NCBI RefSeq assembly: GCF_020966775.1
Contig: NZ_JAJKFV010000029.1
Coordinates: 1,811,372-1,875,371, forward strand
Length of the DNA stretch: 64,000 nt
Direction: 5' to 3'
Origin: Rhodopirellula halodulae
GTDB taxonomy: Bacteria; Planctomycetota; Planctomycetia; Pirellulales; Pirellulaceae
The notes under the pieces were generated by a model that saw only the letters and a program-made list of their open reading frames with translations, had not been told where the DNA came from and ran no database searches. Positions 38,732 to 54,046 of this stretch are shown here, in pieces. How positions within the stretch are numbered: the first letter of the stretch is position 1; each line of letters begins with the position of its first letter. Made by a program: the position numbers and the translations under genes.

Positions 38732-39715
38732 TTACTGAAGCATCTGGCGATACATATTGATCGCGGCTGGTCCGACGAGGACCACGAAGATTCCCGGGAA
38801 GATGAACAACACCAACGGGAAGATCATCTTCACCGCAGTCTTGGCAGCTTTCTCTTCCGCGATTTGACGACGTTTGGTCCGCATCGAATCGCTTTGAACT
38901 CGCAACGCCTGTGCGACGCTGGATCCGAACTTGTCGGCTTGGATCAAGATCGACGCGAGCTGTTTCAGGTCGTCCACACCGCTGCGGTAACCAAGCCCTG
39001 AGAGCACTTCGCTCCGGGGGCGTCCAAGTTGCAATTGATGGTTCGAGATTGAAAACTCTTCACCAATCGCTTTGTGGCTCTTCTGCATCTCTTCCGCGAC
39101 TTTTCGAAGTGCTTGGTCCAGACCCAAACCGGCTTCCACGCAAACAACCATCAAGTCGAGTGCATCGGGCAAACCCAAAAAGATCTTTTCGCGACGTTTG
39201 CTAGCCATGAAACCGAGGATCAACGAAGGCAGCATGAAGCCGACGATCATGCCGATCAGCAATTTCATGATCATGCCCTGAGTCAATCCATCAACGAAGG
39301 CACCGGTAACGCCACCCAGCAGCAAACCGATGCCGGTGCAGACCAGTTGGATCATCTTGAAAATGATCGGCGCACTTTCACGACGGAAACCGGCGTTGAC
39401 CAGCTTCTCACGCAGCTTGCCCATCTCTTCTTCGTTGCCCGACACGGAGCTGGCGATTGGCGTGGCCGCTTTTTCAAGAGCTTCCGTCAGGGCTTCGTTT
39501 TTGGACTTTTGCTTTTCTTCTTCAGCAATGTCGCGAATGCCACGTTTGGTTGTTTTGAGTCGTTCCAGTCTGGATTCGGCTGGGGCTTGATCATCTCCAC
39601 CCACCTTCATCATCACGAACCACGCGAAGGAGGTCACCGCGAGGAAAATGGCAATGGTGGTCAGGGTGACGGGGCTGATGAAACCCAGGGTCTCGATGAA
39701 TGGCAGAATGTTCAT
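38732..39715 (-). CDS. tadC: Tad pilus/type II secretion inner-membrane protein TadC
   Basis: 327 residues with one N-terminal and several central and C-terminal hydrophobic segments. LPDALDLMVVCVEAGLGLDQALRKVAEEM is the T2SSF signature of TadC, with the second signature region GVDDLKQLASILIQADKFGSSVAQAL. Builds the inner-membrane platform of a Flp/Tad pilus with TadB. Last of three same-strand genes, 58 bases after tadB. Confidence 0.94.
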   Translation of the reverse strand: MNILPFIETLGFISPVTLTTIAIFLAVTSFAWFVMMKVGGDDQAPAESRLERLKTTKRGIRDIAEEEKQKSKNEALTEALEKAATPIASSVSGNEEEMGKLREKLVNAGFRRESAPIIFKMIQLVCTGIGLLLGGVTGAFVDGLTQGMIMKLLIGMIVGFMLPSLILGFMASKRREKIFLGLPDALDLMVVCVEAGLGLDQALRKVAEEMQKSHKAIGEEFSISNHQLQLGRPRSEVLSGLGYRSGVDDLKQLASILIQADKFGSSVAQALRVQSDSMRTKRRQIAEEKAAKTAVKMIFPLVLFIFPGIFVVLVGPAAINMYRQMLQ

Positions 39716-39773
39716 GGCAGTGTGCGGGTCAATGAGCGAAAGTGGGAGAACGCAAATTCAAATCGAGAAAGGG

Positions 39774-40739
39774 TCAGACTTTGATCGTGATGATTTTCTT
39801 GATCGCGATGGCACCAAGGATCTGAGTGACCAGTCCCGCACCCAACGCGTAGCGTCCGAGTTCGTCGGTGAAAAGCATCAACACGTATTCCGCATTGATC
39901 TTGAGCATCACCAAGAACAAAACCGGCGGCAGCGCCAGCAGCACCGCACCACTCATGCGACCTTCCCCGGTCAACGCTTGGATCGTTCCCAAAATCTGCA
40001 AACGTTCACGAACGAGGTGACCGATCTTGTCCAGAATTTCGCTCAAGTCACCGCCGGTTTGACGTTGCAGAATGACGGCGGTCGCGAAGAATCGAAGGTC
40101 CATGTTGGGAACGCGTTCCGCCATGTCTTCGATGGCTTCATCCAACGGGATGCCAAACTTTTGCTCTTCGAAACATCGGCGAAATTCGGTTGCCAAAGGA
40201 GCTTCCATTTCTTCGCCAACCAATCCGAATCCGGCGTTCAGCGAGTGACCGGCTCGAAGCGAACGACCGAGCAACTCGAGAGCTTCGGGAATCTGTTCGC
40301 CGAATCGTTTCAGGCGACGTTTTCGTTTGAACATGACGTAGAAGACGGGCCCGCCCACGAACGCGGCACCGACGATGGGACCAAGCAGGATTGGCACGGG
40401 TGTGACGACGCATAGCACGACACCGACAGCGAAGCATGCCCCACAGATCATGGCGAATTTGCTGACGGAGATATCCACGTCGGCTTGTTCCAGGATTTTG
40501 TGAACCGCTGGAACGCGGTCCATGATCGTTTTTAGGATCCCCGTAGCATCGTCCAAGTCATTGAGCAAGAACGAAGGGGTGTTGCTCTCGGCCTCAGCAC
40601 CACGGTTGCCGTGTGCCAATTGTGTGAGACGATCTTCTGTGGCGGTCGTTTCTTCCGACGGCATCAAAACCGAGGCGCCAAAGGCGATCAGCGAGGCGAC
40701 GAAGACACCCGCGGCGATGATGATGATGATCGAGGACAT
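39774..40739 (-). CDS. tadB: Tad pilus inner-membrane protein TadB
   Basis: 321 residues. Hydrophobic N-terminus (SSIIIIIAAGVFVASLIAFG), a pair of central membrane helices (FAMICGACFAVGVVLCVV) and the T2SSF domain IPEALELLGRSLRAGHSLNAGFGLV; a C-terminal helix VLFLVML follows. The GspF/TadB subfamily partner of TadC. Gap of 78 bases to tadA upstream. Confidence 0.94.
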   Translation of the reverse strand: MSSIIIIIAAGVFVASLIAFGASVLMPSEETTATEDRLTQLAHGNRGAEAESNTPSFLLNDLDDATGILKTIMDRVPAVHKILEQADVDISVSKFAMICGACFAVGVVLCVVTPVPILLGPIVGAAFVGGPVFYVMFKRKRRLKRFGEQIPEALELLGRSLRAGHSLNAGFGLVGEEMEAPLATEFRRCFEEQKFGIPLDEAIEDMAERVPNMDLRFFATAVILQRQTGGDLSEILDKIGHLVRERLQILGTIQALTGEGRMSGAVLLALPPVLFLVMLKINAEYVLMLFTDELGRYALGAGLVTQILGAIAIKKIITIKV

Positions 40740-40817
40740 GGGACGTTGCTGTGGAGAAAGGTCGAGAGTTGAGTTCGATTCAAGTGGCTTGCCGAGGCGG
40801 TTGTCCTCGGCGAAACA

Positions 40818-42137
40818 TTACGCTTCCATCATGACTCGCTCGCGGAAGGCGCTGGCGGGCAAACGCACACCGGCGGCTTCCAGTTTGTCCATGAAGCTTG
40901 GGCGAACGCCGCTGCAGACAAAGTGGCCGTGAGCCTTGCCTTCGGAGTTGATGCCCTTTTGATTGAAGCGATAAATGTCTTGCAGGATGATCGTGTCTTG
41001 TTCCATGCCGACCACTTCGGTGATTGCCGTGACGCGGCGAGGTCCACCTTGCAGTCGGTTGGCTTGGATCAAAACATCCACTGCCCCGCTGATTTGCTGA
41101 CGGATGGCTTTCACCGGCAATTCAAAGCCGGACATCATGACCAGTGTTTCCAAACGGGCGATCGCGTCTCGCGGCGTGTTGGCGTGAATCGTGGTCAACG
41201 ATCCATCGTGACCCGTGTTCATGGCCTGCAACATGTCCAACGTTTCACCACCACGGCATTCCCCGATGATGATTCGTTCCGGACGCATCCGCAGGGCGTT
41301 CTTGACCAGGTCCGTCGCGGTGACGGCGCCGTTGCCTTCAATATTGGGTGGTCGAGTCTCCAATCGAACAACATGGTCTTGTTGCAATTGAAGTTCTGCC
41401 GCATCCTCGATGGTGACGATTCGGTCTTCGTGGCCGATGAATGAGGACAGAGTGTTCAGCAGCGTCGTTTTACCGGAACCCGTACCGCCGGCGATGATCA
41501 TGTTCAGGCGGGCTTTGATGCAGCCTTCGAGCAACATCACCATTTCGGGCGTGAAGGCTCGGTAGTTCAGCAAGTCTTCCAGTCGCAACGGGTTGCTGCC
41601 GAAACGACGAATTGAAACGGCGGCACCATCCAAGGCCAGTGGTGGAATGATGGCGTTGACCCGCGAGCCGTCTTCCAAGCGAGCGTCGACCATCGGACAG
41701 GTTTCGTCGACTCGACGGCCGACCTTACTGACGATTCGGTCAATGATCTGCAGCAAGTGTTTCCCGTCGCGGAACTCCACGTCGGTCTTCTGCATTTGGC
41801 CGCCTTTTTCGACGTAAATGTTCTTGGGGCCGTTGATCAGAATATCGCTGACCTTGGGATCTTTGAGGATCAACTCCAAGGGGCCAAGGCCGAACGTTTC
41901 GTCCAGGACTTCATCGACGATGCGTTCGCGTTCCTGACGGTTCAGCAGCGTGTCTTCTGCATCGCAAAGGTGTTCGACCACCATGCGAATTTCGCGTTTC
42001 AGCGTGTCGCCTTGCAAGTCGCCGACACGCGACAGGTCCAGTTTGTCGACCAATTTGCCGTGGATGCGGCGTTTGATTTGTTCGAATTGTTCCTGACGAT
42101 TCGCTTCGGAGCGTTGGGGAGGCGCAGCTTGTCGCAT
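40818..42137 (-). CDS. tadA: Tad pilus assembly ATPase TadA/CpaF
   Basis: 439 residues. Secretion ATPase of the CpaF type: N-terminal four-helix region ([14 protein letters not shown]), Walker [10 protein letters not shown] (217-225), Asp box [12 protein letters not shown], Walker [11 protein letters not shown] and a His box ([12 protein letters not shown]). Powers polymerisation or retraction of Flp-type pili. The usual pilin, prepilin peptidase and outer-membrane genes are not in this window. Confidence 0.97.
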
Positions 42138-42495: not shown

Positions 42496-44499
42496 ATGGT
42501 TGCTGAAGAAACGCCGGGGGCGTCCGTGGATCAGAGTGAGCTGCGGAGGACGCTAAATCGGCTGCGGGAAGAGTTGTTGTCGCAGCGGACAGCCGATGGG
42601 CATTGGACCGGAGAGTTGTCAGCGTCCGCACTCTCGACAGCGACGGCGATCAGCGCGATGAGTGTCGCTGTGCGGGCCGGCGAATTGTCGATCGACGAGG
42701 AAGAGACACTGCGGAAACAGATCCAGTCGGGGCGTGCTTGGCTGGCGGGGCAGCAAAACGACGACGGTGGTTTTGGGGACACCGACCGCAGTCACAGCAA
42801 CATCGCGACAAGTTACTTGGTGCTGGCAGCTTGGGAGTTGTCGGATCAGGTGATGGGAGAAGTGACCGACCCCGATGCGGTCTCGCGATTGAAAGCTTGG
42901 ATTGAAAACGCGGGCGAGTTGGACGGGCTACGCAAACGCTATGGCAAAGACAAAACCTTCGTTGTTCCGATTCTGACCAACATGGCGATCGCCGGATTGG
43001 TGCCATGGAAGAGTGTTTCCGCTTTGCCGTTTGAGGCCGCCGTTGTGCCTCAGTCGCTGTATCGCTTCCTTGGTTTGCCAGTGGTCAGTTATGCCGTGCC
43101 GGCCTTGGTCGCGATTGGGCAAGTCAAGTTTCTAAGAGGTGGTGGCTGCTTGCCGCCTTGGTCGTGGGTGCGAAGATCCGCGATTGAATCTTCGATGAGG
43201 GTGTTGCTTTCCATGCAACCACAAAGCGGTGGGTATTTGGAAGCAACGCCACTGACCGCGTTTGTGGTGATGTCTTTGTCGGCCAGTGGACGAGCCAACC
43301 ACGAAGTGACTCGTAACGGGTTGCGGTTTTTGAAAAATTCCATGTTGCCGGATGGAAGTTGGCCGATCGACACGAATCTTGCGAACTGGGTAACGTCGCT
43401 GGCAACGACGGCGCTCGCGATGGATCCTGACGACGATCGATCGTGGTCCACGCCCGAGTTGATCGATTGGCAACGCGGATGCCAGTATCAAGAGCGTCAT
43501 CCGTTCACCGGAGCGGATCCCGGTGGATGGGGGTGGACGGATTTAACGGGATCGGTGCCCGACGCGGATGACACGCCTGGTGCGATCGTTTCCTTGAGAA
43601 TGCAGGCGACATTCCGGTCGGATCCTTTGTCTGATGACTTTGCAAGAGAATGGCCAACGGAGTCCGGCGAAGGTTCGGTTTCGCAAACCGCGATGGAGAC
43701 TTGGCAGTCGTGTGATCGCGGAGTGGATTGGTTGTTGGGATTGCAAAACCGAGACGGCGGATGGCCGACGTTTTGTCGCGGATGGGGGAAGCTGCCCTTT
43801 GATCGCAGCAGCAATGACTTGACGGCTCACGCGTTGCGAGCCATCGCCTGTTTGCCGAAGCGAAACTCGCTCGGGAGAGAACGTGCGACGCAACGAGGGT
43901 TGGCGTTCCTTCGCAAGAGCCAGTTGCCCGATGGGTCGTGGTTGCCGCTGTGGTTTGGCAATCAAGATCGACCCGATGAAGACAATCCGATCTATGGAAC
44001 GTCGCGAGTTTTGATCGATGTCGATTCCAATTTGGGGCACGACGCCATTTCTCGCGGGCTGGCGTATTTGATACAAAGTCAAAACGGCGACGGGGGGTGG
44101 GGCGGTGGTGAATCGGTCCGCGAAACTTTTGGGTTGCCGCAGGGTTGCATCAGCAGCGTGGAGGAAACGGCTCTCGCGTTGGAAACGTTGGCATGTTGGT
44201 GGGCGAGAATTCACGATTCCTTGCCCGGCGAAAATGCAGCGAGTCCGGGCGGGGCGGATTCCTCAAGCGACATTTTGGACGGAAGCCCGTGGGATGCGTC
44301 GATGCGTTCATCGTTGCGAGCGGCTATACTTGCGGGCACCCGCTGGCTGATCGACGCCGTGCAATGCGAGCGTCACCGGGTGGCTTGGCCGATCGGGTTT
44401 TATTTTGCCAAATTGTGGTATTACGAACGGCTTTATCCGTTGGTCTACACGACTGCGGCATTGGGCCGGGTCATGCAACGCGACGAACTCCTTAGGTGA
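42496..44499 (+). CDS. squalene-hopene-cyclase-like terpene cyclase
   Basis: 667 residues from ATG 42496 (a TTG lies three codons before). The protonating DxDDT motif is present as DADDT (about 356-360), and several QW-type repeats can be seen: LAGQQNDDGGFGD, FLKNSMLPDGSW, LLGLQNRDGGW, FLRKSQLPDGSW and LIQSQNGDGGWGGG. The fold is therefore the double alpha-barrel of class II terpene cyclases, which cyclise squalene or a related chain by protonation. The usual squalene-hopene cyclase C-terminus is present but divergent. The stop overlaps the GTG start of the next gene, tying it to a prenyl chain synthase. The substrate may not be squalene. Confidence 0.85.
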   Translation: MVAEETPGASVDQSELRRTLNRLREELLSQRTADGHWTGELSASALSTATAISAMSVAVRAGELSIDEEETLRKQIQSGRAWLAGQQNDDGGFGDTDRSHSNIATSYLVLAAWELSDQVMGEVTDPDAVSRLKAWIENAGELDGLRKRYGKDKTFVVPILTNMAIAGLVPWKSVSALPFEAAVVPQSLYRFLGLPVVSYAVPALVAIGQVKFLRGGGCLPPWSWVRRSAIESSMRVLLSMQPQSGGYLEATPLTAFVVMSLSASGRANHEVTRNGLRFLKNSMLPDGSWPIDTNLANWVTSLATTALAMDPDDDRSWSTPELIDWQRGCQYQERHPFTGADPGGWGWTDLTGSVPDADDTPGAIVSLRMQATFRSDPLSDDFAREWPTESGEGSVSQTAMETWQSCDRGVDWLLGLQNRDGGWPTFCRGWGKLPFDRSSNDLTAHALRAIACLPKRNSLGRERATQRGLAFLRKSQLPDGSWLPLWFGNQDRPDEDNPIYGTSRVLIDVDSNLGHDAISRGLAYLIQSQNGDGGWGGGESVRETFGLPQGCISSVEETALALETLACWWARIHDSLPGENAASPGGADSSSDILDGSPWDASMRSSLRAAILAGTRWLIDAVQCERHRVAWPIGFYFAKLWYYERLYPLVYTTAALGRVMQRDELLR

Positions 44500-46472
44500 T
44501 TGGCTTGTCGACCGGATCCCCCTCCTATCCCGCCTCCGTCCAACCGACCAACGATCTCGCTGATGATGCGACGTCTGCGGTTCGCACGTCTGGACGCCGC
44601 CGCAAAACCAGTCACCTAAAAGAGGTGCCGGAAACGCTGGCCATGCGGGAAAGCTTGCGGGACCGCTGTGCCGAAGTCGCTGCCAAGTTGGACCGTTCTC
44701 ATCCGATGACCAAGGATGAGATGGAGCAAATTTCGCGACGAATGCTGGAGGAAGCCGATCTGCCCGAGAGTTATCTCGGATGGGTGATGGTGATGATCAG
44801 CAGTGCTTTCTGGGCGGATGAATTGGCATCGGTGCCGCCGGAACGCCGGTTGTTTTTGCTGCCGCACTGCTTGAAGCACGCGGAAGGTTGCCCCGCCGAA
44901 TACGACCAATTCGGGATGAACTGCAAAGAATGCGGTGCGTGCAGCATCGCAGATTTTCGTTCGATCGCGGAAGACATGGGCTATCGAGTCTTGGTGGCCG
45001 AAGGTTCACCGGTGGTGATGAAAATCATCGTCGGTGGATACGTGGACGCCGTCGTCGGTGTCGCTTGTTTGAACGTTTTGGAAAAAGCGATCGACAAGGT
45101 TTTGTTGGCTGGTATCCCGTGCATGGCGGTGCCTTTGCTGTCGAGCGATTGCCGAAACACCAAGGTCGATGAGCCTTGGGTGGAGCAGATGATTCGGACT
45201 CCGTACAAGCCAGCGGCTTCGAAAACGAAGAGCTATGTGCACCTGATGCGAGCGGCGGGATCCTTGTTCGAAGACGCCACGCTCGAACGTTTAGCACCAC
45301 GGCAACGGGACAGCCAAGTCATCACGAATACTCTGTCGCAGGGTTATTCGCCCGGCACGCGGATGTTGGAATCCGGGCCGACCGAAAACACAGTCCGGGC
45401 TGCTATCACGCCGGATCAATTGGAAGGCGTCGATCCGATTGCCGCGACAGAAGCCATCGCGATGGATTTCCTGGCTCGCGGGGGTAAGCACTCACGCCCG
45501 TTCATCACGATGGCCGCCTACGATGCGATGACCGGTGGCGAAGGAACGGGTGCCGAGGGCGAAGCGTCGCTAGAGAAAATGCCGGACGCGGTTCGACGTG
45601 CCGCACTGAGCATCGAAACGTTTCATAAAGCCAGCTTGGTTCACGACGACATCGAAGACGGCGACGCTTATCGCTACGGCCAGCCCGCGGTTCATCAACG
45701 GTTTGGAATGGCCAGTGCGATCAACGTGGGTGACTACTTGATCGGGTTGGGGTATCGATTGCTCAGCCGAAATGTGATGGGCGATGAAGTGGACGCGGAG
45801 ACTCGTGTCGACTTGCTGGATTCGTTGGCTGCCGCTCACGTTCGCTTGTCAGAAGGTCAGGGAGCAGAACTGCTTTGGCGAGACGCGAAAGATCGCCGAT
45901 TGACTCCGCTGGATGCCTTGAAAATCTATGCTCTGAAAACGTCACCGGCGTTTGAAGCGGCTCTTTACAGCGGTGTTCGGATGGCGGGCGATGCGACGGA
46001 GTTGGTCGATCCGATTCGAAAGTTCAGCCGGAATTTGGGTGTGGCGTTCCAAATTATTAACGACCTGAATGACTGGGTGGGGGACGACTTCAACAAGATG
46101 ACCGCGGGTGCCGATGTCATCGGTGGTCGGCCGACGTTGTTGTGGGCGTTGGCTTTGGAGCATCTGGACGCTGATGACCAGCAGCGTTTGTTGAATTTGG
46201 CCAACGATGACTGCGAACTGTCCAATCGCGAACGTTTAACGCGGACTCGCGAGCTGTACGAAAAGGCCAATGTCTTTGAGATGAGCTTGCAGTTGATCGA
46301 CAAGCATCAAGCTCGCGCCGAAAAAGTCGCCGACGAGATCGAAAACGAAAGTCTGCGGCGTTTGTTGTACTTCTTGGTGGATACGGTTTTGGAACGTCCC
46401 GAAGCGTTGTCTCCCGAAGAGGAATCGTCCAAAACGCCCGCGGTGGTGAGCATCGGTGTGGTGGCGCGTTAG
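44496..46472 (+). CDS. fusion of DUF116 domain and polyprenyl synthase
   Basis: 658 residues. The N-terminal 280 residues are DUF116-like: LLPHCLKHAEGCPAEYD, MNCKECGACSIADFR and a later SSDCRNTK give Cys125, 132, 143, 146, 149 and 219, a plausible metal or iron-sulfur site. The C-terminal 350 residues are a polyprenyl diphosphate synthase with FARM DDIED (384-388, after LVH), KTS (480-482) and the second Asp-rich motif NDLND (521-525), in which the first Asp is Asn. GKHSRP (330-335) corresponds to the GKRLRP motif. GTG 44496 overlaps the cyclase stop. The product chain could feed the cyclase. I know of no standard family with this fusion. Confidence 0.85.
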   Translation: MIGLSTGSPSYPASVQPTNDLADDATSAVRTSGRRRKTSHLKEVPETLAMRESLRDRCAEVAAKLDRSHPMTKDEMEQISRRMLEEADLPESYLGWVMVMISSAFWADELASVPPERRLFLLPHCLKHAEGCPAEYDQFGMNCKECGACSIADFRSIAEDMGYRVLVAEGSPVVMKIIVGGYVDAVVGVACLNVLEKAIDKVLLAGIPCMAVPLLSSDCRNTKVDEPWVEQMIRTPYKPAASKTKSYVHLMRAAGSLFEDATLERLAPRQRDSQVITNTLSQGYSPGTRMLESGPTENTVRAAITPDQLEGVDPIAATEAIAMDFLARGGKHSRPFITMAAYDAMTGGEGTGAEGEASLEKMPDAVRRAALSIETFHKASLVHDDIEDGDAYRYGQPAVHQRFGMASAINVGDYLIGLGYRLLSRNVMGDEVDAETRVDLLDSLAAAHVRLSEGQGAELLWRDAKDRRLTPLDALKIYALKTSPAFEAALYSGVRMAGDATELVDPIRKFSRNLGVAFQIINDLNDWVGDDFNKMTAGADVIGGRPTLLWALALEHLDADDQQRLLNLANDDCELSNRERLTRTRELYEKANVFEMSLQLIDKHQARAEKVADEIENESLRRLLYFLVDTVLERPEALSPEEESSKTPAVVSIGVVAR

Positions 46473-46589
46473 CCGCTGGGCCGGATCAGCAGGAGCGTCA
46501 AATGAGGTGGCGCGGCGGATGAGTGGACGAGTCCGCAATGAACAGAATGCCCGTCCCATGTTCCAGCGGACTTCCACTGAAGGTTGCTC

Positions 46590-47234
46590 ATGACTCCCGG
46601 TTCACCCTCCTCCGAGATCGAAACATTGAGCGAGTCCGCGGAACAGGTTGATCTCAATTCGTTGCTACGCGAGTTTTACGACGACTTCGCGGAGTTGGCT
46701 TCGTTCGAGCTGGCGTCCGAGATACCGGAACCGTTCGATACATTGCTGAACCACCAGTCGCACATGACGGTGACCGTCGAGCACTATCACGGCGAGCCTG
46801 TTGATGTGGCGGTTCATCGTCGGCGAAACCGTTTCGCCAGTGGGGATGTGGTTCAGGCGGTTGATGTTGCCAATCCGGAGGAGTTGGATGCAACGGTGGC
46901 TTACACGCGAGAAATCACGCTGGTCACTCACGACACGCAGCAAGTGGTGCAGCACGGAATTGTCCGGTTGGACCCATCTGCCCTCTCGCGTTCTGTCTGG
47001 CATCAAATTGCCAGCGGCGAAATTCCGCTCGGTCGAGTGTTGATCGAAAACAACGTGCTCCGGCAGGTTCAGCTTTGTCGTCTGTGGCGGGTCACCGCGG
47101 GGCCATCCCTGGCGAAATACTTGAATCTACAAGTGGGAGACGTGGTCTACGGTCGAACCGCACTGATCCGATGCGACCACAAACCGGCAATTGAATTGCT
47201 GGAAATTGTCCGCGGAAACGGGCCTTTGAGCTGA
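46590..47234 (+). CDS. chorismate-lyase-like (UbiC/DUF98-fold) protein
   Basis: 214 residues. HMTVTVEHYHGEPVDVAV, EITLVTHDTQQVVQHGIVRL and the segment EIPLGRVLIENNVLRQVQL look like the UTRA/chorismate-lyase fold, in which a PLG-type turn precedes the key ligand; a relative in mycobacteria makes 4-hydroxybenzoate. ATG 46590 is used; TTG 46584 is just upstream. It lies 117 bases after the prenyl synthase gene on the same strand. Whether it makes 4-hydroxybenzoate is not demonstrated. Confidence 0.55.
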   Translation: MTPGSPSSEIETLSESAEQVDLNSLLREFYDDFAELASFELASEIPEPFDTLLNHQSHMTVTVEHYHGEPVDVAVHRRRNRFASGDVVQAVDVANPEELDATVAYTREITLVTHDTQQVVQHGIVRLDPSALSRSVWHQIASGEIPLGRVLIENNVLRQVQLCRLWRVTAGPSLAKYLNLQVGDVVYGRTALIRCDHKPAIELLEIVRGNGPLS

Positions 47235-47573
47235 TTTTCTTGGGTGCCGGTGGTTGCCAAGTCGATTGATTCTTTCCCCCCGCCAGGCGGTGAGTTAATT
47301 GACACAACAAGTCTATTTGATACGATCTAAAAAGTTTTCAGAGTACGAATCCTTCTCGCTGACGTTCCTGTTGCGAGGCGATTCGCTCCTTTGCTGAGAA
47401 CTTGGCCTCGAAGAATCGTCCACGAATTGTTGGATCCCACCTTTCACCCAGCTGGTCCGATTGGATTACGCCGGGTCCCACCCACCTCTTGATTTGTTCG
47501 CGAAAGTCGCCTCTGTAGGTGAACGATGGCGCAACAGATCAATCGCCCGCTTCATTTGAGGAGCAACAGAGAC
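47235..47573. other. upstream region of the cytochrome-type locus
   Basis: 339 bases between the chorismate-lyase-like gene and the DUF1501 gene. AT-rich near 47290-47345 (TTGACACAACAAG at 47299 resembles a -35 element, with GATACGATCT downstream); a promoter for the following operon is plausible but unproven. Confidence 0.4.
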
Positions 47574-48893
47574 ATGCGTTGTCACGGAAACCCACTGATG
47601 CAACCCGGCATGTTTGGTCGCCGAGGATTCTTGGTTGCGGGAGCAGCCAGCGGACTTGGATTGAGTTTGCCCCAATTGCTGATGCGAGAAGCATCGGCGG
47701 AAATCAAGCAATATGATTTTGTGAAGGCTCGAGCCAAGAGCGTGATTCACATTTTCTTGCCGGGCGGAATGGCTCAGCAAGAATCATGGGACCCGAAGCC
47801 CTACAGCCCGATGGAGTATCGTGGCGATCTCGGCACGATCAAAACCAACACGGGCGAGGTGATCGGCAGTGCCATGCCTCAACTGGCGAAGCGAGCCGAC
47901 AAGTACTGCGTGATTCGTTCGATGTCGCACGGTGAAGCGGCTCACGAACGCGGGACGCACAACATGTTCACGGGCTACAAACCCAGCCCGGCATTGAGCT
48001 ACCCGAGTTTTGGTGCGGTGGTGAGCCATGAATACGGGCCACGCAACAATTTGCCTGCCTACATCTGCGTGCCCAACGTTCCCAATGAATTCGCGGGAAC
48101 GGGATACCTTCCCAGTTCGTATGGCGGATTCGCTCTTGGTGCCGATCCTGCTCGTGATGATTTTCAGGTCCGCGATTTGAACTTGGCTGGTGGAGTCGAC
48201 GAGGCACGTTTCATGCGGCGCAAACGTGCGTTGGAAATGGTCAACCAGCGATTCGTTTCGGGGACTTCTGCGGACAACGTCGGGGCGATGAACACGTTCT
48301 ACGAGCGTGCTTATGACCTTCTCGATACTCCCGAAGCCAAAGCCGCGTTTGATCTGTCAAAAGAAGACGCCAAGATGCGTGATCGCTACGGCCGAAACCA
48401 AGCCGGTTCACGCATGTTGATGTGCCGTCGACTGATTGAGGCGGGCGCTCGTTTGGTGACCATGACCTACGGCGGTTGGGACATGCACACCAACATCACC
48501 TCCGGTATTCGCGGGCAGATGCCGAGCTTCGATCAAGGATTGGCTGTCCTGCTAGATGACTTGAGCGAGCGAGGTTTGCTGGATGAAACGTTGGTCATGG
48601 TGACCAGTGAGTTCGGCCGCACACCGAAAATCAATGCTGATGCTGGACGCGATCACTGGCCGAAGGTCTTCAGCGTGATGCTGGCGGGCGGCGGTGTGCA
48701 AGGCGGACAGATCTACGGTGCTTCGGATTCGACGGCTTCCGAGCCCGAGCTGAATCCGGTCTCGCCCGCCGACTTGGCAACTACCATGTATCGTCTGCTG
48801 GGCATCGTGGCTGATAAAGAGCTGATGGCCCCCGGCGACCGACCCATTGAAATTGTCGATGGCGGCAACGTCATCGAAGAAATTTTGACTTGA
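47574..48893 (+). CDS. DUF1501 (sulfatase-fold-like) exported protein
   Basis: 439 residues. A GAGGAG motif (47558-47563) lies 10 bases before ATG 47574; the frame extends to ATG 47526. A twin-arginine-type signal (FGRRGFLVAGAASGLGLSL) opens the protein, predicting Tat export. The body shows DUF1501 hallmarks: HIFLPGGMAQQESWDPKP, HERGTHNMFTGY, MTYGGWDMHTN and TSEFGRTPKINADAGRDHW. The fold is related to alkaline phosphatase/sulfatase, but no reaction is known. DUF1501 genes usually accompany DUF1549/DUF1553 genes in planctomycetes, as here. Confidence 0.93.
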   Translation: MRCHGNPLMQPGMFGRRGFLVAGAASGLGLSLPQLLMREASAEIKQYDFVKARAKSVIHIFLPGGMAQQESWDPKPYSPMEYRGDLGTIKTNTGEVIGSAMPQLAKRADKYCVIRSMSHGEAAHERGTHNMFTGYKPSPALSYPSFGAVVSHEYGPRNNLPAYICVPNVPNEFAGTGYLPSSYGGFALGADPARDDFQVRDLNLAGGVDEARFMRRKRALEMVNQRFVSGTSADNVGAMNTFYERAYDLLDTPEAKAAFDLSKEDAKMRDRYGRNQAGSRMLMCRRLIEAGARLVTMTYGGWDMHTNITSGIRGQMPSFDQGLAVLLDDLSERGLLDETLVMVTSEFGRTPKINADAGRDHWPKVFSVMLAGGGVQGGQIYGASDSTASEPELNPVSPADLATTMYRLLGIVADKELMAPGDRPIEIVDGGNVIEEILT

Positions 48894-48914
48894 GTCTCGA
48901 CTCGAGCGATATGA

Positions 48915-48940
48915 CGGCAACTTGAAACTTCAAGTTGCCG
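48915..48940. terminator. 26-base near-perfect palindrome after the DUF1501 gene
   Basis: CGGCAACTTGAA (48915-48926) and TTCAAGTTGCCG (48929-48940) are perfect reverse complements separated by AC. No T-run follows. It lies inside the locus, so it could attenuate transcription into the downstream genes or protect an RNA end. Confidence 0.55.
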
Positions 48941-48992
48941 TTGCTGATTCCCACCTCCCGCCCCGCCTCTCTCCCACCGAAGGTTTGTTGTG

Positions 48993-51554
48993 ATGTTGCA
49001 CGACAATCTCTCTGTCTGCGCAGACTCGTTGCAAGGACGCTCCCGGTGCCGATCCAAGTCTCGCCGATCGAAGGCACCCTGGAACACCCGAGCCCAGTCC
49101 GCAATGGTCGACCGCGGCTCGAAATCTTGGCCTGCGTTAACGTTGGCATGCCTAGCGGTAATGGGCATGACAAGTGTCGCTTCGGCGGCCTTTCCAAAGA
49201 TCACCTACATGCGGCCACTGGGCGTGGTGCGAGGCCAAGAGGCCACGGTCACGTTGCACGGAAGTGCGTTGGGTGACGCCACTCAAGTCCTGACGGATCT
49301 GCCCGGGATCGAGATCTTGGAAGTCACACCGGTCGATGAAAAATCGGTTACCGTGAAATTGAAGACGGAAGAGACTCTCTCACCGGGGTTGTATCCGATC
49401 CGCTTGGTCACGAAGAGCGGGATCACGAATTTGCGTCTGTTGGGCGTCGGAACGATGCCCATTGTGAACGAGCAAGAACCAAATAACTCGTTCGAAGAGC
49501 CACAAATCATCGAGATGGACCGGACCATCGAGGGCAATATCGATCGTGAAGACGTGGATTGCTTCAAGGTTCAGTTGGAAGCCGGGCAAAAGCTGACGGT
49601 TGAAATTGAGGCCATACGGTTGGTGCAAGAGCTTCGCAACCGAAACATCTTTGATCCCGCGATTGCCATTTTGGATGCTGATCGGTTTGAGGTCGCGGTC
49701 AGTGATGATTCGTCATTGTTGCAGCAAGACAGTCTGTGTTCGTTCACGCCCGAAGAAGCGGGGGAATACACGATCACGGTTCGCGAAAGTTCGTTTCTGG
49801 GTGCGTCCAACGTTTGCGGTTACCGACTGCACGTGGGATCGTTCCCGCGACCCGTGACGGTGATTCCATCGGGTGGTGTTCAGGGGCAAGTTTTGCAAGC
49901 CAAGTTGATCGACATCGATGGTTCCGTCACAGATTCCAGTGTTCAGTTGCCGAGTGAGCCTGTTGCCCAATGGCCGGTGGTGACGCAGGATGACCGTGGC
50001 GTGTCTCCATCGCCCAATTGGATTCGCGTGAGCAATGCTCCGATTGTGACCGAGACCGAACCGAACGAAGGCCGAACGGAAGCTTCACCGGCCGAGTTTC
50101 CCGCTTTGCTTTGCGGCGTGATCGAAGAGGGTGATCAATACGATTGGTATTCGTTTGAGTGTAAGAAGGGCGACCGGATGCGTGTTCAACTGCACGCTCG
50201 CAAGACCCTTCGGTCACCGCTGGACGGTGTTATCCACGTCTTTGATCCCGACGGAAAAGTTTTGAAGGGTAGTGATGACATTGGCCCCAATCCGGACGGA
50301 TTGGTGGACATCGACATCGCCAAAGACGGTCTGCACTACGTTCGTGTGTATGATCACTTGCGACGTGGCAGTCCCAATCACAATTACGTGATTGAACTCA
50401 GCCGTCGTGAACCCTCGCTGGGGTTGTCGCTGAAAGAACTGCGACGCGACGAAGCCATGGTTGTTCCTGTTCCGGTGGGCGGACATGGTGCGATGGTTTT
50501 GACGGCTCAGCGAAGTCAATTCAACGAAGCGTTCGAGGCGATGGTGAAGGGTCTGCCCGAAGGCGTCACCGCAACCACGTTCCCTATGCCGGCCGGTCGC
50601 GTTGAAATTCCAGTCGTGCTTCACGCGACAAAGGAAGCACCGCTCGGAGGCGCTCTGTTTGAGGTGACGGCGGTCGGTAAAGTTGGCGACAAAGAAATCC
50701 TCGGCGATTTCAATCAGCACCACAAAATGGTACTCGGCCAAAACCGCCGCGAAATGTTCGGTTATGAAACGGAGAAGGCGGCCTTGGCCGTTTGTGAGGC
50801 AATGCCGTTTGAGGTCGAGTTGGTGCAGCCCAAAACACCGATCCTGCGTCGCGGTAGTAAAGACCTCATCGTTCGAATCAAACGCGATGAAGGCTTTGAT
50901 GGCACCGTCTCATTCCGCACGCTTTACAACCCACCGGGTGTGGGCGTGAACAACAGCAAACGGATCGACAAGGGGAAAAGCGAAGTCGCCATTCCGATCA
51001 CGGCAAACGGAAACGCCGCGATTGGTGCTTGGCCGATGGTCATGCAGGTCAGCTACGGAACGAACCGTGGAACCGCGACGATGTCGACCGCTCCCATCAT
51101 GCTCGATGTGGAGGAACCCGTGTTTGACTACTCGTTCCCGAAGTCGGCCGCGGAACAGGGAATGTCGACAACATTGGCAGTCGGCATGAGTAAGCGTCGT
51201 GATATCGAAGGTGACATCAAAGTTCGTCTGGTTGGAATCCCCAACGGCGTGACCTGTGACGAACCTCAAAAGAAGGTCAGCTTGGACAGCGAAGCGGTTC
51301 AGTTCGAGTTGAAGGTCGCAAAGGACGCGAAACCGGGCACGCACAAGACGATGGTCTTGCAAACGTTGATCACTCGTGACGGCGAGACCATGGTTCAGAC
51401 CGACGGGACAGGCGAGATTCGGATCGATAAGCCGTTGCCGGTGAAGAAGGATCCGCCTGCCGAAAAGAAAGAAGCAACCAAACCAAAACCAAAGCCTGCT
51501 GCCAAACCACTGAGTCGTTTGGAGCAACTTCGTCAGCAAAAGGAGTCGAAATGA
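48993..51554 (+). CDS. secreted PPC-domain (pre-peptidase C-terminal-like) protein
   Basis: 853 residues. GAAGG about eight to ten bases upstream supports GTG 48990 or ATG 48993; the signal peptide itself (ALTLACLAVMGMTSVASA) starts around residue 48, so the n-region is long. ATG 49104 is an alternative. The mature part begins with an IPT/TIG-like domain (ITYMRPLGVVRGQEATVTLHG), followed by two pre-peptidase C-terminal domains (NEQEPNNSFEEPQIIE, TETEPNEGRTEASPAEF) and more beta-sandwich domains. The C-terminus is Lys/Pro-rich (PPAEKKEATKPKPKPAA). Its stop overlaps the next gene's ATG (ATGA). Likely cell-surface; function unknown. Confidence 0.85.
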   Translation: MLHDNLSVCADSLQGRSRCRSKSRRSKAPWNTRAQSAMVDRGSKSWPALTLACLAVMGMTSVASAAFPKITYMRPLGVVRGQEATVTLHGSALGDATQVLTDLPGIEILEVTPVDEKSVTVKLKTEETLSPGLYPIRLVTKSGITNLRLLGVGTMPIVNEQEPNNSFEEPQIIEMDRTIEGNIDREDVDCFKVQLEAGQKLTVEIEAIRLVQELRNRNIFDPAIAILDADRFEVAVSDDSSLLQQDSLCSFTPEEAGEYTITVRESSFLGASNVCGYRLHVGSFPRPVTVIPSGGVQGQVLQAKLIDIDGSVTDSSVQLPSEPVAQWPVVTQDDRGVSPSPNWIRVSNAPIVTETEPNEGRTEASPAEFPALLCGVIEEGDQYDWYSFECKKGDRMRVQLHARKTLRSPLDGVIHVFDPDGKVLKGSDDIGPNPDGLVDIDIAKDGLHYVRVYDHLRRGSPNHNYVIELSRREPSLGLSLKELRRDEAMVVPVPVGGHGAMVLTAQRSQFNEAFEAMVKGLPEGVTATTFPMPAGRVEIPVVLHATKEAPLGGALFEVTAVGKVGDKEILGDFNQHHKMVLGQNRREMFGYETEKAALAVCEAMPFEVELVQPKTPILRRGSKDLIVRIKRDEGFDGTVSFRTLYNPPGVGVNNSKRIDKGKSEVAIPITANGNAAIGAWPMVMQVSYGTNRGTATMSTAPIMLDVEEPVFDYSFPKSAAEQGMSTTLAVGMSKRRDIEGDIKVRLVGIPNGVTCDEPQKKVSLDSEAVQFELKVAKDAKPGTHKTMVLQTLITRDGETMVQTDGTGEIRIDKPLPVKKDPPAEKKEATKPKPKPAAKPLSRLEQLRQQKESK

Positions 51555-54046
51555 ACCGGTCCTTCAATCGATTGACTGTTCGCACGCTTGGGCTGGCGGT
51601 GGTTGCCGCGGTCTTGGGTACATCCAGTTTGGCAAACGCCGCCACACCGGAACCCGTCAAATCTGACAGTGGCGAATTGCCCAAAATTGATCTGGCGATT
51701 TATCCGCCGGAAATCTCACTGACAACCGCTGCGGATTTCCAATCGTTTGTGGCGGTTTTGCGCCGCGACGATGGTGTGACCGAGGACATCACGGAACAGG
51801 TTCGCTGGTCGGTGGTGAACGACAAACTCGCCAAAATTGACGGGCATCTCTTACGACCAGTCGCCGATGGTGAAACGACGCTTCGAGGTCGTTTCAGCGG
51901 AACGACGGTGGATGTGAAAGTCACCGTTGCGAAGGCCGGAACCCATCCGCCGGTTAGCTTCATCAAAGACGTGATGCCAACCTTGACACGTGCCGGATGC
52001 AACACGGGATCGTGTCACGGCGCGGCTCGAGGAAAAGATGGTTTCAATCTCAGTTTGTTTGGGTTTGACCCCAACGGCGACTACCAACGCATCACTCGTG
52101 AAATTGGCGTCCGACGTATCAACTTGGCCGTTCCTTCGGAAAGTCTGCTGCTGAAAAAGTCTGTTGGGTCGGTACCGCACACTGGCGGTAAGTTGTTCGA
52201 TGTGGATTCGGACTACTACGAGACCATGCACAGTTGGTTGGAAGCAGGTGCTCCAAAAGACGCGGCCGACGCATTGCCACCCGCCGTGACTTCCGTTGCG
52301 ATCTATCCACCACAAGTCGTCTTGGAGGGCGAAGGTGCGAAGCAACGAATGGTTGCCGTCGCGACCTATGCCGACGGGACGACCCGTGATCTAAGCCGAT
52401 TGGCAACGTTCTCGACGAACGACGCATCCGTGGCGCCCATCGACCAAGACGGCGTTGCCACGGCGGGATCACGGGGCGAAGCGTTTGTGATGGCCCGCTT
52501 CGACACGCATACCGTGGGATCGCAGGTTTTGACCTTGCCTGCGGACCTGAAGTACATCGCACCCGAACCGCAACCCAGCAGCTATGTCGATGAATTGGTT
52601 GACAAGAAACTCAATCAGCTACGTTTGGTTCCGAGCGGGCAATGCACGGACGAAGAATTCATCCGCAGAGCGACCATTGACATCACAGGATTGTTACCGA
52701 CTGAAGAAGAGCTGAATCTGTTCGTCAACGATGTCGCCCCGGACAAACGAGAAGCTTTGATCGATCGTTTGCTTGAGCGCAAAGAGTTCAGTGAGATTTG
52801 GGCGATGAAGTTCGCTCAGTTGCTGATGATCAAGAGTACCAACCAGGTCAGCAAGAAGTCGGCTTTGCTTTATGCAAACTGGTTAACGGACCAGTTCGCT
52901 CGAAACGTGCCGATCAATGAGATGGTCCATGATCTGTTGACCAGTACCGGGGGCACCTTTGGAGAGCCCGCCACGAACTTCTATGAAATCGAACGCGACA
53001 CACTGAAGACCGCGGAAAACGTCGCTCAGGTCTTCATGGGGATCCGCACACAGTGTGCTCAGTGCCACAATCACCCCTTCGATCGTTGGACGATGGATGA
53101 TTATTACGGATTCGCCGCGTTCTTCAGCCAAGTCGGCCGCAAGCAAGCGGAAGACTATCGGGAAAAGATTGTCTACAACCGGTTCAGCGGTGAGACCAAA
53201 CACTTGGTGACCAAGCAAAACGTGCCTCCGAAGTTCCTTGGCGGCGACGCCCCCGATACCAAGGGGAAAGACCGACGCGAAGTGCTGGCCGAATGGTTGG
53301 TTGCCGGTGACAACCCGTTCTTCTCCACCAGCATCGCCAACCGTGTTTGGGCTCACTTCATGGGATCGGGTTTGGTGGATCCGGTGGATGACATTCGTGT
53401 TAGCAATCCGCCCAGCAATCCAGAGTTGTTCGATCGTTTGGGTGAGAAGTTAGTGGAGTACAACTACGACTTCCGAAAACTGGTTCGCGACATCTGCACG
53501 AGTCGTGCTTATGGCCGCAGCACCAAGACAAACGATTCCAATGCTCATGACACACGAAACTACGCTCACGCGACGATTCGACGTGTTCCTGCGGAGAGTT
53601 TGTTGGACTGTATTTGTCAGGTCACCGAGAGTCCGGAGAAGTTCAGCGGTCTGCCGCTGGGTAGTCGTGCGGTCCAAATTTCAGATGGAGCCACGTCCAA
53701 CTATTTCTTGACGACGTTTGGGCGTTCGCCTCGCGCCACCGTTTGTGAATGCGAAGCGACCACTGACCCATCGCTATCGCAGGCATTGCACCTGCTCAAT
53801 GGAAGTTCGGTTCACAACAAAATTGTGCGTGGTGGGCTGATCAAACGTTGGATCAACGATGAAAAACTGGATCCGGACGCAATCTTGGATCGAATCTACC
53901 GTCGAGCATTGAGTCGCGATCCTTCCGCAGAAGAACGCGAAGCCGTGAAAGCGTTGCTCGCCGAAGAGGGGGCTCAGCCTCAAGCTGTCATGGAAGATGT
54001 GTTCTGGGCCGTGTTGAACGGTCGGGAATTCGTTTTCAACCACTGA
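51551..54046 (+). CDS. DUF1549/DUF1553 (planctomycete cytochrome-type) protein
   Basis: 831 residues with a signal peptide (residues 1-30). Two Big-like beta domains (about 45-130 and 255-345) flank a segment with the haem-like motif CNTGSCHG (C150, C155, H156: CX4CH). Next come DUF1549 (YVDELVDKKLNQLRLVPSG, FIRRATIDITGLLP), a standard CAQCHNHP (CXXCH) and DUF1553 (RREVLAEWL, NRVWAHFMGSGLVDPVDD, DGATSNYFLTTFGR). The haem sites suggest periplasmic redox activity. The gene is coupled to the upstream PPC protein. The reaction is unknown. Confidence 0.93.
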   Translation: MNRSFNRLTVRTLGLAVVAAVLGTSSLANAATPEPVKSDSGELPKIDLAIYPPEISLTTAADFQSFVAVLRRDDGVTEDITEQVRWSVVNDKLAKIDGHLLRPVADGETTLRGRFSGTTVDVKVTVAKAGTHPPVSFIKDVMPTLTRAGCNTGSCHGAARGKDGFNLSLFGFDPNGDYQRITREIGVRRINLAVPSESLLLKKSVGSVPHTGGKLFDVDSDYYETMHSWLEAGAPKDAADALPPAVTSVAIYPPQVVLEGEGAKQRMVAVATYADGTTRDLSRLATFSTNDASVAPIDQDGVATAGSRGEAFVMARFDTHTVGSQVLTLPADLKYIAPEPQPSSYVDELVDKKLNQLRLVPSGQCTDEEFIRRATIDITGLLPTEEELNLFVNDVAPDKREALIDRLLERKEFSEIWAMKFAQLLMIKSTNQVSKKSALLYANWLTDQFARNVPINEMVHDLLTSTGGTFGEPATNFYEIERDTLKTAENVAQVFMGIRTQCAQCHNHPFDRWTMDDYYGFAAFFSQVGRKQAEDYREKIVYNRFSGETKHLVTKQNVPPKFLGGDAPDTKGKDRREVLAEWLVAGDNPFFSTSIANRVWAHFMGSGLVDPVDDIRVSNPPSNPELFDRLGEKLVEYNYDFRKLVRDICTSRAYGRSTKTNDSNAHDTRNYAHATIRRVPAESLLDCICQVTESPEKFSGLPLGSRAVQISDGATSNYFLTTFGRSPRATVCECEATTDPSLSQALHLLNGSSVHNKIVRGGLIKRWINDEKLDPDAILDRIYRRALSRDPSAEEREAVKALLAEEGAQPQAVMEDVFWAVLNGREFVFNH

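Follow-up and report, generated by a model that had tools for sequence, protein, structure and literature searches.

What do three adjoining genes of Rhodopirellula halodulae make, and do they make it together? The window, that is, the whole stretch of DNA analysed, is 64,000 nt long (GCF_020966775.1, NZ_JAJKFV010000029.1:1,811,372-1,875,371, forward strand), and the locus in question lies at positions 42496-47234. It encodes a cyclase (CYC), a fusion of a DUF116 domain with a polyprenyl diphosphate synthase (FUS) and a chorismate-lyase-like protein (CHL), which the original prediction had read as one terpenoid cluster, with CHL supplying 4-hydroxybenzoate for a meroterpenoid. The meroterpenoid is not the best reading of the locus. 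Co-inheritance with the cyclase is seen for three other proteins, namely a radical S-adenosylmethionine (SAM) enzyme, a 4Fe-4S protein and a further toroid protein (alpha-alpha toroid protein, TOR). CYC and FUS are, with some reserve, probably members of a biosynthetic module that extends through Planctomycetota, a terpenoid set that would make a cyclised polyprenoid. In the bacterial family of the window, this otherwise undescribed module is for the most part retained or lost whole, along with its iron-sulfur and radical enzymes. The features of the locus are as follows.

42496..44499, + strand: CYC, a class II terpene-cyclase-like protein of the squalene-hopene cyclase (SHC) fold, with DADDT and SHC domains
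44496..46472, + strand: FUS, DUF116 plus all-trans polyprenyl diphosphate synthase, from domain matches
44631..45263, + strand: DUF116 domain of FUS, with eight conserved cysteines, from Pfam and alignment
45456..46211, + strand: polyprenyl synthase domain of FUS (residues 321-572), from PF00348
46590..47234, + strand: CHL, a protein of the DUF98/UbiC fold, from its fold

The three domain assignments of the original prediction were all recovered. SHC domains were found in CYC by domain scan, and its acid motif DADDT occupies residues 356-360; FUS matches DUF116 (PF01976) at 137 bits against a cut-off of 25 and the synthase family PF00348 at 148.6 bits against 27; and the chorismate-lyase fold (DUF98/UbiC), for which a check had been proposed, is present in the product of 46590-47234. 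The CYC and FUS genes overlap by GTGA. The gene order is likewise conserved rather than scattered among relatives: in the comparison set, 119 genomes of the bacterial family of the window, the contiguous order CYC-FUS-CHL occurs in at least 80. Among the named loci, the best 80 of 576 confirmed, in some of which the contig stops within the cluster, CYC lies upstream of FUS in 71 and CHL directly after FUS in 74, and the loci with one or the other adjacency include Gemmata and other Gemmataceae. CHL itself was found in 111 of the 119 family genomes. CYC-like matches occur in 106, of which 99 were read as the CYC family and 7, all weak, as other cyclases, at least three of the latter being SHC loci (G015, G041, G062).

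Shared presence and absence tell these genes apart. The full set of CYC, radical SAM enzyme, 4Fe-4S protein and TOR occurs in 94 of the 119 family genomes and is missing entirely from 14, and the mixed remainder is 11 genomes, 8 of them less than 90% complete. Pairwise Fisher p values among the four range from 1e-11 to 4e-17, while CHL against each of them gives 0.11 to 0.60; since the genomes are not independent, these values are only a guide. Moreover, CHL is present in every one of the 14 genomes without the module. The idea of one terpenoid cluster is supported for CYC and FUS and not for CHL, which is a conserved FUS neighbour in Pirellulales and Gemmataceae, inherited separately from CYC. 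The 14 module-less genomes span ten genera, and because a sister genome keeps the set in three of these (g24, g38 and g64), the module has probably been lost more than once in the family. Nine of the 14 give no FUS-type match, their best hits (E 1e-13 to 1e-18) being other synthases, and five (G047, G051, G062, G096 and G117) retain one.

The co-inherited genes need not be neighbours. In the window genome the radical SAM gene (67% identity), the 4Fe-4S gene and the TOR gene are scattered at three other places (C2:671950, C29:966090 and C1:86356), and of the 95 family genomes with both CYC and the radical SAM gene, 31 have the start of the latter no more than 8 kb from CYC. Two family genomes, G010 and G037, carry instead a divergent compact cluster, in which FUS is about 35% identical and the CYC, radical SAM and 4Fe-4S genes match it; their CYC falls inside a set of other families with support of 100/99, and their CHL lies on another contig. 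Displacement as a unit, with CHL left elsewhere, is what would be expected if the genes of the cluster cooperate and CHL is independent of them.

Across the phylum, DUF116 is present in 99 of 294 genomes. Loci from many families of the phylum, as well as G010, show a full cluster in the order GcvH-like protein, CobW, small protein, 4Fe-4S protein, radical SAM enzyme, FUS, TOR, CYC and cysteine desulfurase, with the GcvH-like gene often upstream and TOR, of about 294 residues, often between FUS and CYC. In 20 phylum loci, chosen by hand from fused DUF116 matches and spread over families, CYC was found in 18, the 4Fe-4S protein in 15, the radical SAM enzyme, CobW and TOR in 13 each, the small protein in 9, and the GcvH-like protein and the desulfurase in 7 each. 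CHL was found in one of the 20, on a search with three family CHL queries that more distant CHL proteins could escape. In the Pirellulales loci L217, L218 and L231, the GcvH-like protein, 4Fe-4S protein, radical SAM enzyme, CYC, FUS, CHL and TOR all stand together. The radical SAM protein is not HpnH, with 47.9 bits for TIGR03470 against a cut-off of 225; its best partial matches include the heme-biosynthesis enzymes NirJ, AhbC and AhbD (E between about 1e-14 and 1e-20) as well as peptide maturases (to 1e-23), all far under their cut-offs.

FUS carries a trace of the same partnership. The eight cysteines of its DUF116 domain (residues 125, 132, 143, 146, 149, 191, 209 and 219) are all kept in 78 of the 80 named loci, and seven of the eight in the remaining two. 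In G047, G051, G062 and G117, all without CYC, the radical SAM enzyme, the 4Fe-4S protein and TOR, no more than one cysteine of the eight survives; domain scans covered G047, G062 and G117, where DUF116 falls below the Pfam cut-off and the synthase domain stays above it. Since the cysteines are lost where the radical and iron-sulfur partners are gone, they appear to be required only alongside those partners. The link from DUF116 to iron-sulfur chemistry, raised earlier as a conjecture, is thus strengthened by the co-inherited radical SAM and 4Fe-4S proteins. It has been proposed in PMC5898192, as far as its retrieved text goes, that DUF116 has a role in electron transfer, and the DUF116-polyprenyl synthase fusion is described there in Psta_0175 of Pirellula staleyi. 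In the synthase half, the first Asp motif is DDIED, found at residue 384; relative to it, 87 of 87 rows carry Phe at -8 and Ala at -5. The second Asp-rich motif of the window FUS is NDLND (window 46059-46073), not DDxxD, and the divergent clusters L076 and L075 have DDVED/DDLED at this place, a difference that could affect how metal is bound or how long the chain becomes. Phylum genomes of family f44 (L105, L107, L111 and others) encode DUF116 as a separate protein of about 155 residues, whereas other families have the fusion.

Domain content, the order of the genes, their joint presence or absence, their displacement as a block and the loss of DUF116 cysteines in module-less genomes were observed directly. 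From these we infer an order of enzymes, the chemistry of the steps, an electron flow, the involvement of carrier and desulfurase, and a product. The synthase half of FUS would first make a linear all-trans polyprenyl diphosphate; the DxDDT acid of CYC would then protonate and cyclise that product, or a compound derived from it, with TOR as a possible partner; and the radical SAM enzyme would finally modify the terpenoid with electrons from the 4Fe-4S protein and the cysteine-rich DUF116 domain of FUS. In the full clusters, the GcvH-like protein as a lipoyl-type carrier, the CobW GTPase and the cysteine desulfurase would also take part. A more far-reaching form of this proposal, which is possible and no better than speculative, is that of an unrecognised lipid pathway throughout the phylum, in which a class II cyclase, a radical SAM enzyme, a DUF116 iron-sulfur chain and a lipoyl-type carrier would give a radically functionalised polycyclic polyprenoid, a squalene-free counterpart of the hopanoids.

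Could CYC instead be a divergent squalene cyclase fed by HpnC/D/E, with FUS serving another pathway such as the side chain of menaquinone? The SHC domains and DADDT would fit this, and the window genome does hold HpnC, HpnD and then a flavin adenine dinucleotide (FAD) enzyme. However, CYC reaches only 80.5 bits for TIGR01507 (hopene cyclase), against a cut-off of 431.1, and the true SHCs of two family genomes reach 677.6 (L257) and 641.6 bits (L254). HpnH and HpnG matches adjoin the SHC gene in all five true SHC loci fetched, and HpnH was confirmed at one of them (TIGR03470, 522.5 bits). In a tree of 56 rows, 5 SHCs separate from 51 CYC proteins at 100/100 across a very long branch, a split to be read with the warning of the tool that long branches meet. 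Two further polyprenyl synthases in the genome also weigh against assigning FUS elsewhere. This explanation is therefore improbable, and CYC is, by its sequence, a family apart from the hopene cyclases rather than an ordinary SHC. Two separate observations concern SHC genes: on contig C115 of G003, the radical SAM gene (26948) lies about 14 kb from a true one (L253:6175-8277), and an SHC gene is noted in a Phycisphaerae genome in the retrieved text of PMC7783415.

The meroterpenoid of the original prediction is a slightly poorer candidate. According to this explanation, the prenyl chain from FUS is attached by a UbiA-type enzyme to 4-hydroxybenzoate, which CHL makes from chorismate, and CYC cyclises the chain. 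CHL keeps the Met-Thr and PLG motifs of its fold, and its R107, invariant in 120 of 120 rows, aligns with an Arg of UbiC which we take to be catalytic; the Glu of UbiC, presumably catalytic as well, falls outside the aligned part, and E202 (115/120) and E205 (119/120) are conserved candidates in CHL. The name chorismate-pyruvate lyase stands in the source on 13 of the 120 CHL homologues listed. No Chor_lyase or DUF98 Pfam match was obtained at E 1 in 34 CHL members, and UTRA matched in 5 of the 34 (best E 0.022); a GntR/UTRA regulator was considered and rejected, the protein having 214 aa and no N-terminal DNA-binding domain in Pfam scans. The frequent position of CHL directly after FUS also favours a joint product, and in G047, G062 and G117 (L260, L079 and L088) an altered, cysteine-poor FUS still directly precedes CHL with the module gone, which speaks for some tie between FUS and CHL that does not depend on the cyclase, and perhaps for a separate use of the two. 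A precedent is the cyanobacterial merosterol pathway, which in the retrieved text of PMC5618424 pairs a UbiA-like prenyltransferase with an SHC-like cyclase.

Against this stand the inheritance of CHL, set out above, its near absence from the phylum loci, and the missing sign of a joining enzyme. A search of 112 cluster loci and the window with the three UbiA proteins of the window genome and that of E. coli gave no UbiA-type match, and UbiA matches per genome average 3.27 with the module (94 genomes) and 3.21 without it (14 genomes; p 0.80), so there is no pointer to a 4-hydroxybenzoate prenyltransferase of the module. The three UbiA proteins, all on other contigs, resemble MqnP, heme O synthase and EboC (the last at L087:7608-8867, on C10 of the window genome, where its score of 132 bits falls short of the cut-off of 250), and one of them could still serve the module. 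The claim that CHL feeds a meroterpenoid is thus not borne out. The caution against a ubiquinone role was well placed: the window genome has MqnE, with the UbiA of the MqnP kind beside it, and a UbiE-like gene, and its menaquinone appears to come from the futalosine route. The least probable explanation is a system of cofactor or protein maturation, in which the radical SAM enzyme, CobW, desulfurase and lipoyl-type carrier would build or load a prenyl-bearing cofactor, with TOR and CYC as prenyl-handling partners and the prenyl group perhaps cyclised. It draws on these partners, on the NirJ, AhbC, AhbD and peptide maturase matches, and on archaeal DUF116 genes near sulfite/nitrite reductase genes (retrieved text of PMC5898192), but those radical SAM matches are generic and DxDDT is kept in 93 of 93 CYC rows, as expected for terpene protonation.

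For the cyclised polyprenoid module, retention as a unit in 94 of the 119 family genomes and its presence in other families point to an unknown, probably membrane-related terpenoid, in a phylum known for odd membranes; its product might serve as a new lipid biomarker. The module would place DUF116, together with an unnamed family of radical SAM enzymes, in a concrete pathway, and SHC-like matches in planctomycete genomes need not imply hopanoids.

The surroundings of the locus are of other kinds. Upstream, at 38732-42137 on the - strand, a CpaF-like ATPase (the frame that was scanned) and two more upstream frames of the same strand form a tad-pilus-like set that points away from CYC. Downstream, at 47526-54046, a DUF1501 protein (the first frame, and the one scanned) precedes large open frames, which are of a kind that we assume to be common in planctomycetes.

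Among known systems, Psta_0175 has the same type of fusion as FUS, although cyclase, radical SAM enzyme and co-inheritance are not mentioned with it in the retrieved text of PMC5898192. The merosterol pathway resembles the locus in its SHC-like cyclase and aromatic-acid theme and differs in including a UbiA-like prenyltransferase (PMC5618424); the cluster loci here gave no match to such an enzyme, and CHL is not co-inherited. With the chorismate lyases of the DUF98/UbiC type, CHL shares the fold, Met-Thr, the aligned and presumably catalytic Arg and the PLG motif, and it differs in matching neither Pfam family by sequence in the 34 members. In the sesquarterpene pathway of Bacillus, whose tetraprenyl-beta-curcumene cyclase is mentioned in retrieved literature text, a prenyl synthase gives a linear chain that an SHC-like enzyme cyclises later; compared at the level of description, the pairing of prenyl synthase and SHC-like cyclase is alike, and we know of no radical SAM, DUF116 or carrier partners there. 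The hopanoid pathway, with SHC and HpnH, shares a DxDDT class II cyclase that adjoins or is co-inherited with a radical SAM enzyme, and of the known cases in which a radical SAM enzyme acts on a cyclised terpenoid, HpnH comes closest. However, CYC and the radical SAM enzyme here are far under the SHC and HpnH cut-offs, true SHC-HpnH loci are separate, and the module adds a DUF116-prenyl synthase, a 4Fe-4S protein, TOR and a carrier.
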